From NCBI GenBank assembly GCA_016866255.1, contig VGMY01000006.1, positions 1-64,000 of the forward strand: 64,000 nucleotides of DNA. Direction: 5' to 3'. Shown here one piece after another: positions 28,057-30,746 of the stretch. The notes below the pieces were generated by a model that worked only from the letters and a program-made list of their open reading frames with translations, was not told the DNA's origin and ran no database searches. A program made the translations under genes and the position numbers. Position 1 is the stretch's first letter. The number at the start of each line of letters is the position of its first letter. The DNA is from Bacteroidota bacterium. Its GTDB lineage: Bacteria > Bacteroidota > Bacteroidia > Flavobacteriales_D > Crocinitomicaceae.

Positions 28057-29038
28057 GTTTTTTCAATGTTTGGTACATTTTGGGACGATCAATTTTTCCA
28101 GTTTTGGTCGTAATCATTTTATCCACTAATGCGAATTTTCGGGGCATTTCATTGGAAGTGTAGAGTTTCTTCAATTCCGCCAACGTCGGAATTTTTCCTG
28201 TTTTGAGCAGGACAATTCCCACACTTTCACCCCATACTTCGTCGGTTATTGGCATCGCAAGGCAAGGTTCATTCAGCAAGGTGCTGAGTCGGTCTTCTAC
28301 ACGTTCAGGGTGTATTTTTATCCCACCGCTGTTAATGACAAAATCTCGTCTGCCCAACAGGTGAAAAGCCTCTTCGCCTACCAGCTGTACGCAGTCATTG
28401 GTTTGTACAAAACCGTTCTCAAACGCCTCACAATGTATTACAAGGCAGTCCTCCTGAACGGATAATGTAACACCTTCAAGGGCTTGGTAGGGTTCTTTAA
28501 AATTGTGAGATATTTTTCGGACGGCAACGTGCGATGCGGTTTCCGTCATACCGTAGGTTTGATAGGCTTGTGAAAAGTATTGGGAGATTCGTTGAAATTG
28601 TCGTTCATTCAACGGTGCTCCACCGATTAACACGACTCCTTGCTGTGGCAATGGTTGGGCTTGATCCAGGTAATTCATGGCTTGCACAGGCACAAGGGCA
28701 TTGAAGTCGAGGGCCATCTCCAAGTCTTTCAGGGGATTCTTATTCACAGGCAGTACGTGCAATTCCATGTTTGCGAGGAGAGAACGAACAACCATCATTT
28801 TTCCCGCAATTGAGGAAAGGGAAAGGCATAAGCCTGCTTTCATTCCCGGTGATAGGTTGAAGTGGGTTATGGTGCGCTCTGCAGATTTGGCTAACAAACT
28901 CTTCGAAAGTTGTAGCGTTCGAGGTTTACCGGTTGAGCCCGAGGTGTTTACCTCCACATAGTTCAAAGAGTCATCCCATCGTTGGATAAATTCCTTAACT
29001 TCCAGCATTCTATTTAAATCGTGGTATACGATGTCCAT
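28034..29038 (-). CDS. menE: O-succinylbenzoate-CoA ligase-like AMP-binding enzyme
   Basis: A 334-residue, unusually compact member of the ANL adenylating superfamily. The ATP P-loop motif is NTSGSTGKPRTLQL (about 31-44), the adenylate motif is YGMTETASHVAVR (about 160), the hinge is GRRDFVINSGGIKIHPE (about 226) and the C-terminal lysine motif is TTKTGKIDRPK. Bacteroidota MenE proteins are of this short type, so the enzyme probably forms OSB-CoA in menaquinone synthesis. No other men genes are in the window, so another acyl substrate is possible. It starts two bases after the dnaX stop and is co-transcribed with it. Confidence 0.82.
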   Translation of the reverse strand: MDIVYHDLNRMLEVKEFIQRWDDSLNYVEVNTSGSTGKPRTLQLSKSLLAKSAERTITHFNLSPGMKAGLCLSLSSIAGKMMVVRSLLANMELHVLPVNKNPLKDLEMALDFNALVPVQAMNYLDQAQPLPQQGVVLIGGAPLNERQFQRISQYFSQAYQTYGMTETASHVAVRKISHNFKEPYQALEGVTLSVQEDCLVIHCEAFENGFVQTNDCVQLVGEEAFHLLGRRDFVINSGGIKIHPERVEDRLSTLLNEPCLAMPITDEVWGESVGIVLLKTGKIPTLAELKKLYTSNEMPRKFALVDKMITTKTGKIDRPKMYQTLKKHEWQALL

Positions 29039-29040
29039 CG

Positions 29041-30746
29041 CTAAAATTCAATATCCAGGTTAAATCGGTTTCGAAGGGTGTGCAAATTTGGATTTTTGCG
29101 CGCAAGGGCTTGGAATTTTTCTATCCCGGTGTAGGGTTTATTTTCTTTCGCAACCTCATTCGTTAGTTCCAAATTAAATTTGATAAAACTGTTGTTCAAT
29201 TCTTTTTTTAAATAAGATGCGAAGTCCGCCAAAAGAGGAGATATGTACGCTATTTGCACTTCATTATCCAAAATCCAAGTTATGGTTTCATCATTTAAGA
29301 AAAAATCGCGCTTAATTACAGCGTGGTAAAAGGTATCTTTCCCCTCGTTTTTCATTTGTGTTGCATAATTGCGGCTCGCAATTCTTAACGATTCCCCATT
29401 GAAGGGGGTTCTCGGCAATTGGTCATCGGGAATCAAAGGTGCCTCCTTAAAAAGTTCCAGCGATGCTTTAATGCTAATATTTTGGAAAGAGGCAACTGTG
29501 GTTTTTGGACTTTGGGCCTCGGGAATCGATGCGGGAGTCGGTGAGGGACTCGAGGGTGACTCATCTTTTACCGCGGTTGTTGAATTCTTGGCTTGCTGAT
29601 GTTTAAAAGGGAGAATACTAATCGGATCTGTCAGGGATTTTTTTTTTCCGACTCCTGTTGTAACGAGCCCAATTCCATGAGGGTAACTTCCACCAGCAGA
29701 CGTTGATTTTTCGAACTTTTAAAGCCCACATCTGCCTTACTGATGGCGTGAAGCGCGCGAACAATGGCCTGTTTTTCCCATTCATTGGCTTGTTGGGTGT
29801 ATTTTTGGCGTACGCCTTCCGTTGCCTCTAACAAAGGAGCTGTTCGAATGTCTTTAACCATCAGTAAGTTCCGAAAGTGCTCCGCTAATCCTAACAGGAA
29901 TTGATGACCGTCGAAGCCTCGATTTAAAATATCGCTGAAAACCAGTAAGGATCCGGCAATATCCTCTTTACGCAAGTACTCCACCACCTTAAAGTAATAG
30001 TCATAATCCAATACGTGCAGATTATTTAGTACTTGTTGGTATGTGATATTGCCTTCGCTAAACGTCACCAATTGGTCAAAAATAGATAAGGCATCTCTCA
30101 ATGCACCATCGGCTTTTGAAGCGATCAAATGAAGTCCCTCCTGCTCATAGCTAACCTCTTCTTGTTCTGCGATTTTACCCAAGTGTTGGGCAATATCGTT
30201 AACCCGTATACGGTTAAAATCGAAGATTTGACAGCGTGAAAGTATCGTCGGTATAATTTTGTGTTTTTCCGTGGTTGCCAGAATGAAAATAGCATGGGCA
30301 GGTGGCTCTTCCAAGGTTTTCAGGAAGGCATTGAAAGCCTGCGCTGAAAGCATATGCACTTCGTCGATGATGTAGACCTTGAAATCTCCCAACTGTGGTG
30401 CTATTCGGACTTGCTCAATTAATCCCCGAATGTCGTCCACCGAATTGTTGGAAGCGGCATCCAGTTCATAAACGTTTAATGAACTACCCGAATTAAACGA
30501 CAAACAGGACTCGCATTGATCACAAGCTTCCACATTATCTGTTCGATTGAAGCAGTTGATCGTTTTGGCCAATATCCGGGCGGTGGTCGTTTTGCCAACT
30601 CCTCGGGAACCGCAGAACAAAAATGCCTGAGCAAGATGTTTGGTTTTAATGGCGTTTTTGAGCGTTTCAGTTATGCCAACCTGCCCGACCACAGTGTCAA
30701 AAGTCTGTGGGCGGTATTTTCTTGCAGAAACGACGAATTGGCTCAT
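29041..30746 (-). CDS. dnaX: DNA polymerase III gamma/tau subunit, full-length form requiring a -1 frameshift
   Basis: Reading frame 0 from 30746 enters an A10 run (29638-29647) and stops at 29631. A -1 shift on that run opens the frame that continues to 29041, giving a product of about 568 residues. The extension has a Pro/Ser/Thr-rich linker and then a DnaX C-terminal domain (SYATQ-like RNYATQMKNEGKDTFYHAV through FQALARKNPNLHTLRNRFNL), the part expected to contact the alpha subunit and DnaB. The join is inferred from sequence only. It could be programmed ribosomal or transcriptional slippage, or a sequencing error in the homopolymer. The well-kept C-terminal domain argues against a dead gene. 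Confidence 0.8.
29631..29656 (-). other. Candidate frameshift/slippage site in dnaX
   Basis: On the coding strand: AGGAG (29652-29656), four bases, ten A residues (29638-29647), then TCCC and the frame-0 stop TGA (29633-29631). E. coli dnaX has the same elements: an upstream SD-like sequence, an A-rich slippery site and a nearby stop. Thermus dnaX uses an A-run for transcriptional slippage. I see no strong downstream hairpin. Confidence 0.7.
29631..30746 (-). CDS. dnaX: DnaX short form (gamma-like), in-frame product
   Basis: The 371-residue product of frame 0. It holds the complete clamp-loader ATPase: Walker A GSRGVGKTTTARIL (about 44-57), the zinc-binding cysteines CFNRTDNVEACDQCESC, Walker B VYIIDEVHML, sensor 1 ILATTEKHK and the SRC arginine-finger motif, then the collar domain. 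It ends SEKKNP directly after the A-run. It is about the size of E. coli gamma without its C-terminal domains and should assemble into clamp loaders. ATG 30746 was chosen over ATG 30761 because a TATTTTTG box lies at 30751-30758. Confidence 0.93.
   Translation of the reverse strand: MSQFVVSARKYRPQTFDTVVGQVGITETLKNAIKTKHLAQAFLFCGSRGVGKTTTARILAKTINCFNRTDNVEACDQCESCLSFNSGSSLNVYELDAASNNSVDDIRGLIEQVRIAPQLGDFKVYIIDEVHMLSAQAFNAFLKTLEEPPAHAIFILATTEKHKIIPTILSRCQIFDFNRIRVNDIAQHLGKIAEQEEVSYEQEGLHLIASKADGALRDALSIFDQLVTFSEGNITYQQVLNNLHVLDYDYYFKVVEYLRKEDIAGSLLVFSDILNRGFDGHQFLLGLAEHFRNLLMVKDIRTAPLLEATEGVRQKYTQQANEWEKQAIVRALHAISKADVGFKSSKNQRLLVEVTLMELGSLQQESEKKNP

Follow-up and report, generated by a model that had tools for sequence, protein, structure and literature searches.

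The window, a stretch of 64,000 nucleotides from a Bacteroidota bacterium of the family Crocinitomicaceae (GCA_016866255.1, contig VGMY01000006.1), carries a dnaX gene written as two open reading frames that require a −1 shift, with a poly-A run at their junction (Table 1). On the minus strand, positions 29656-29631 read AGGAG-TCGG-A10-TCCC-TGA. The initial annotation had described a dnaX gene split by ten A residues, with a tau-like product needing a one-base change of register and an AGGAG four bases before the run, and the sequence confirms both points; the frame-0 stop, placed there six bases after the run, in fact begins four bases after it. The proposed product lengths, 371 residues for the gamma-like and about 568 for the tau-like form (frame 0 joined to the −1 frame), were reproduced from the open reading frames. 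The −1 frame ends directly before the next gene, as had been stated, with the ATG of a menE-like ORF at 29038. The phase of the run includes A_AAA_AAA, a possible −1 ribosomal site, and stops lie close behind the run in both frames that do not lead to tau. Nine-A matches are no rarity for the base composition of the window (6 observed, 10.7 expected), so the significance of the A10 run rests on its position.

Table 1. Features of the dnaX locus in the window.
Feature	Coordinates	Strand	Remarks
dnaX, whole gene	30746-29041	minus	
dnaX frame-0 ORF, gamma-like product, 371 aa	29631..30746	minus	ATPase, lid, domain III; start ATG 30746
A10 slippage tract, predicted	29638..29647	minus	frame-0 phase GAA AAA AAA AAT
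Frame-0 stop TGA (gamma stop)	29631..29633	minus	four bases past A10
Third-frame stop TAG	29618..29620	minus	would be met by mRNAs with 9 or 12 A's; product also gamma-sized
−1 frame: tau-specific linker and C-terminal domain	29041..29647	minus	TAG 29041-29043
tau C-terminal domain, modelled: KH / DnaA-domain-I-like alpha-beta core	29044..29490	minus	
AGGAG, SD-like	29652..29656	minus	probably no functional stimulator here; not conserved

The frame-0 product matched TIGR02397 with an E-value of 7.1e-131 and 436.7 bits (cut-off 250), contained PF13177, PF22608 and PF12169, covered positions 1-369 of PRK14971 and also matched solved gamma/tau structures. With the AAA+ ATPase, lid and domain III all present, it is identified as the N-terminal part of DnaX. 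The initial annotation had assigned the −1 frame to the DnaX C-terminus, which was borne out: residues 22-200 of its product (P0002) correspond to positions 432-613 of PRK14971 (E 1.3e-18), a 614-residue model of DNA polymerase III gamma/tau, and thus to the tau-specific C-terminal domain. The two pieces were scored separately against PRK14971 and neither alone reaches its 685-bit cut-off, whereas an unbroken relative from the same family (L034) scores 761.3 bits. No Pfam match above cut-offs was obtained for the −1-frame C-part. In fold comparison, the top matches of the modelled tau C-domain were DnaA domain I and DciA/KH-like folds, with no E. coli tau domain among the matches listed. Purifying selection acts on the −1-frame C-part in close relatives, judged from dN/dS values of 0.018-0.246 in the 10 of 14 close pairs where it was computable (the window being in none of these pairs).

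Loci with the dnaX N-part were collected from genomes of the genus, family and order and from 80 named genome records (302 loci in total), the named loci being the best 80 of at least 594. Six of the 302 were duplicates in the compared part, leaving 296 (77 named, 139 family and 80 order-level). Nine of these had no match to the C-domain (L004, L088, L095, L098, L109, L122, L202, L241 and L258) and were dropped, and 287 were used. The 139 distinct family loci derive from part of 193 family matches, and at the order level outside the family 81 of 87 matches were fetched, one of the 81 being a duplicate. From an even draw over the phylum, 28 of 47 same-class genomes and 18 of 148 other-class genomes were fetched; the 28 class-level genomes were picked from a list, many by rank, and do not form a random sample. 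Fifteen further family genomes are reported apart, outside the 287.

A dnaX match was present in 78 of 86 genomes of the genus, the window's own included. The open frames around the N-part were 351-393 residues long in 74 of the 78; the others were G053 (592 residues), G085 (486, with A10 and the stop still present) and two partial matches, G008 and G056. Across the family, 193 of 200 genomes had a match, and frames among the matches listed measured 371-430 residues except in G085, G134 (595), G092 (448), G229 (587) and G026 (358). A run of A9 or more stands immediately ahead of the stop or within the linker in 131 of the 139 distinct family loci (A10 in 115, A11 in 13, and A9, A12 and A14 in one each) and is lacking in eight; a −1 split is likewise found in 131 of the 139. 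The three family members that are unbroken carry A11, A11 and A14. In 125 of 126 family-type split loci, a set pre-filtered for a stop no more than 9 nt from the run, the frame-0 stop shares bases with a YTR codon read in the −1 frame. Judging from this recurrence across the genus and most family loci, the split in the window is no local error.

The dnaX genes of two records titled as MAGs of Chryseobacterium gleum (L052) and Chitinophaga pinensis (L054) are also of the type found in the window's family. Over the compared part, L052 does not differ from a locus of that family (L136, genome G086), and the public organism names of L052 and L054 therefore look wrong.

Over the whole set, family loci included, a run of A9 to A14 occupies the same dnaX linker in 268 of the 287 Bacteroidota loci with a C-domain (A10 in 227, A11 in 27, A9 in 11, A12 in two and A14 in one). 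Over all 287 loci, runs of A9 or more numbered 269 in 93,493 nt of linker, one in 303,609 nt of N-part and four in 103,236 nt of C-domain, and no run of T9 or longer was found in any of the three parts. Two loci retrieved later (L325, L346) do contain a T9, located behind the N-part. At the scale of a whole genome, the 2.34 Mb of G000 hold just 15 distinct A/T runs that reach a length of 10 (L305-L324). The dnaX tract was present in all 20 records titled as strains (17 unbroken, 3 split −1), and A9 or more was found in 28 of 28 fetched same-class genomes vs. 5 of 18 other-class genomes. Three loci from other classes of the phylum (L366, L367, L368) have dnaX split −1 with A9-A10, and cases in Chlorobium and Chloroherpeton have been described (PMC3711429).

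All 81 order-level loci outside the family carry A9 or more; 40 are unbroken, 21 are split −1, 19 are split +1 and one is without a C-domain. The initial annotation had taken most flavobacterial dnaX genes to be unbroken frames and had proposed an independent origin of the two-product strategy. The first statement does not agree with the even division between 40 split and 40 unbroken genes, and the second finds no support where every order-level locus has the run; an older, shared tract whose register has changed would explain the data better. It had further looked to relatives with one intact frame and no A run as evidence against its reading; such loci make up seven of the 287, and none of them is in the family or order sample.

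The register of the gene relative to the tract varies. Among the 268 tract-bearing loci, 88 are unbroken, 159 are split −1, 20 are split +1 and one falls in none of these classes. On a FastTree tree of the dnaX N-part, the loci with the tract show a minimum of 27 changes of register, and presence of the tract changed five times, counts that are approximate because this is a quick tree in which 74 of 283 inner branches are weakly supported and some long branches are joined. Restricting the count to the 226 loci whose run is exactly A10 still leaves at least 19 register changes, so the changes are not just miscounts of the A run. A single register was found in 48 of 52 genera and −1 is nearly always used in the family; register is therefore not simply neutral, and may determine which product is the default.

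Stops behind the tract close both non-tau frames within 8 codons in 83 of 88 unbroken genes, 147 of 159 genes split −1 and 17 of 20 split +1 (85-94%), a three-class test from which L259 ("split0" with an A run) was excluded. At random positions further down the same linkers, both frames were closed within 8 codons in 15-18%. The same closure was seen in 24 of the 28 class-level genomes, and 20 of 267 loci leave one non-tau frame open for more than 8 codons.

We consider it likely that programmed slippage of RNA polymerase on the A10 tract of dnaX gives rise to both gamma and tau; that the polymerase rather than the ribosome changes register, and that both products are made and used, we infer from these sequence patterns. 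Slippage on A10 would yield dnaX mRNAs with a varying number of A's. Unslipped or unrepaired messages would run into a stop in frame 0 or the third frame and encode a gamma-like subunit ending after domain III, at about 371-376 residues, while messages with 11 A's (or 8, or 14) would place the C-terminal domain in frame and encode the predicted tau, about 568 residues long. On the model of E. coli tau, this longer subunit would tether the clamp loader to the replicase. Since a slipped mRNA pool would have three registers, one for tau and two for gamma, both non-tau frames would need a nearby stop. A ribosomal −1 shift needs one stop only and cannot serve the +1 genes, and closure of both frames therefore favours such a pool. 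Orthologs that shift in different directions have also been taken as a sign of transcriptional realignment (PMC3711429).

A wider reading, to which we attach somewhat less confidence but which still appears probable, is that dnaX of Bacteroidia has no fixed register. The conserved unit would be the A10 slippage tract with stops in both non-tau frames, and the genomic spelling of gamma or tau would have flipped many times, because on the same reading the mRNA pool holds every register anyway. Register may then only tune the tau:gamma ratio.

Several observations count against polymerase slippage. Register is non-random, the frame being conserved over long spans in the family and within genera as described above. 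The phase of the A10 run contains a possible ribosomal heptamer, 19 of the 287 loci are without the tract, and some loci leave a non-tau frame open as noted. L259 combines an A run and a frame-0 stop with a C-domain in frame 0, an arrangement that a one-base slip does not explain; an error of assembly may be responsible. The split −1 class also includes L068, which breaks 471 nt past the run and not at the run.

A programmed −1 ribosomal frameshift on A_AAA_AAA, boosted by AGGAG in the manner of E. coli except that the shifted product would be tau, would account for the in-phase heptamer in the window, the AGGAG four bases upstream of it and the predominance of −1 splits in the family, and a few bacteria in which tau seemingly comes from ribosomal frameshifting are mentioned in PMC5009743. 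We nevertheless regard this explanation as unlikely. The same tract is found in 20 loci that need a +1 shift for tau and in 88 that need none, and the third frame is closed as well. In the 65 nt behind the tract there was no stem-loop signal (mean z −0.32 over 268 loci vs. −0.52 and −0.22 in controls; +2.3 in the window), and the SD-like element was not conserved, with GGAG within 14 nt upstream of the tract in 30 of the 126 family-type split loci. Moreover, sequestration of the 16S tail is reported to keep ribosomes of Bacteroidia from recognizing SD sequences (PMC9976891). The SD-boosted shift to gamma and tau in the initial annotation thus stands in part: the two-product outcome is likely, but stimulation by an SD element is not upheld.

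Ribosomes might instead slide on the AAA-rich tract with no programmed stimulators, alone or together with polymerase slippage, and so scatter into all frames. Sliding on iterated AAA has been described for E. coli ribosomes (PMC4363877) and would explain both shift directions, but it is slow relative to normal elongation and termination (PMC4363877), and runs of at least nine A or T have been cited as sites where polymerase slips in variable directions (PMC6260861). We hold this explanation to be doubtful. Rather improbable, in our estimate, is a role in rescue only, where tau would be the sole product needed, slippage would repair a tolerated frameshift and gamma would have no role. Slippage-corrected dnaX frameshifts have been proposed in Blochmannia (PMC3017870), but rescue does not predict that 88 unbroken genes retain the tract, nor that 83 of them retain stops close behind it in the two remaining frames. 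That the split reflects a mistake in sequencing or assembly, or the decay of a pseudogene, is very improbable even though homopolymers are error-prone and the A11, A11 and A14 of the three unbroken family members are as indels or errors would yield. The same tract and split occur in many separately assembled genomes, and the split also appears, judged from open frames, in the single-contig family genomes G141, G151 and G174. The gene is moreover one of replication, has a single close match in the genome, and its C-part in relatives has a dN/dS far under 1. For the family as a whole, this explanation is ruled out.

The 19 loci without the tract comprise seven unbroken named records (L078, L086, L091, L092, L099, L108 and L114), three loci with an in-frame TAG, L090 and eight family loci. 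A subclade of the family (g5, g9, g12 and g21) is split −1 without an A run in 15 loci, seven and a further eight (L275, L278-L283, L382-L384, L386, L387 and L389-L391), so tau must be reached there by some other route, or the C-domain must be made as a separate protein. Overlap of the frame-0 stop with ATCNTAR (e.g., GTATCTTAAGTT) is seen in 13 of these loci; the remaining two have the start-stop overlaps ATGA (L280) and GTGA (L391). The C-domain of this subclade may be a separate, translationally coupled protein, or may be reached through another recoding signal. A further, divergent locus (L276, g23) also lacks the tract. Among the 15 family genomes reported apart, six have A10 or A11 and eight are without the tract, while in one the locus is truncated where the contig ends.

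In the three loci with an in-frame TAG, all from metagenome-type records of Bacteroidales or Bacteroidetes, the TAG stands just before ATTGCWAGG and the C-domain continues in the same frame (L089 near 2790, L111 near 4104 and L118 near 4101). This arrangement of the sequence suggests UAG readthrough; a search of dnaX in 395 class genomes did not recover this exact motif. Two of the unbroken records without an A run (L078 and L092; Bacteroidaceae, Bacteroides MAG) have a G-run in the linker followed by CGTAG, where a −1 shift would meet TAG at once, a possible different signal for gamma.

If polymerase slippage is the mechanism, making gamma and tau in this way would be usual in a whole bacterial class and no curiosity of Thermus, and dnaX genes annotated as seemingly frameshifted would be explained. 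Natural variants in all three registers would offer material for asking what purpose gamma serves and whether the tau:gamma ratio matters. The mechanism would also suggest how a replication gene may switch reading frame between genera with its set of products unchanged. In our literature search, we found no published account of the tract being present throughout Bacteroidia in every register, with the two remaining frames closed by stops.

The split gene itself belongs to a known type, and the novelty implied by the initial annotation does not hold: a GeneTack cluster of two-ORF dnaX genes, reported in 2013, comprised 17 fs-genes from 12 genera with a −1 shift at the DNA level, nine of them with 10 A's, and its authors called the type new and proposed transcriptional realignment (PMC3711429). 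The window gene, split −1 with A10, is like these genes and is a member of that type; unbroken or +1 relatives with the same tract are not reported for the GeneTack dnaX genes in the accessible sections of that paper. As in E. coli, one dnaX gene is predicted here to give two products with a common N-terminal part, and an AGGAG-like element lies upstream. However, E. coli uses a −1 ribosomal frameshift at A_AAA_AAG and its tau is the unshifted product, whereas in the window tau would be the shifted one, and the SD element and stem-loop that act in E. coli (PMC3711429; PMC5009743) are both unconserved here. The closest parallel to the proposed mechanism is dnaX of Thermus thermophilus, where transcriptional slippage at A9 makes gamma (PMC1088944). 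There, as in the window, an A homopolymer lies inside the gene with stops close behind it, and slippage leads to gamma and tau, as proposed here. The difference is one of spelling: the Thermus genome encodes tau and slippage makes gamma, whereas the window encodes gamma and slippage would make tau, and the 88 unbroken tract-bearing relatives have the Thermus arrangement.
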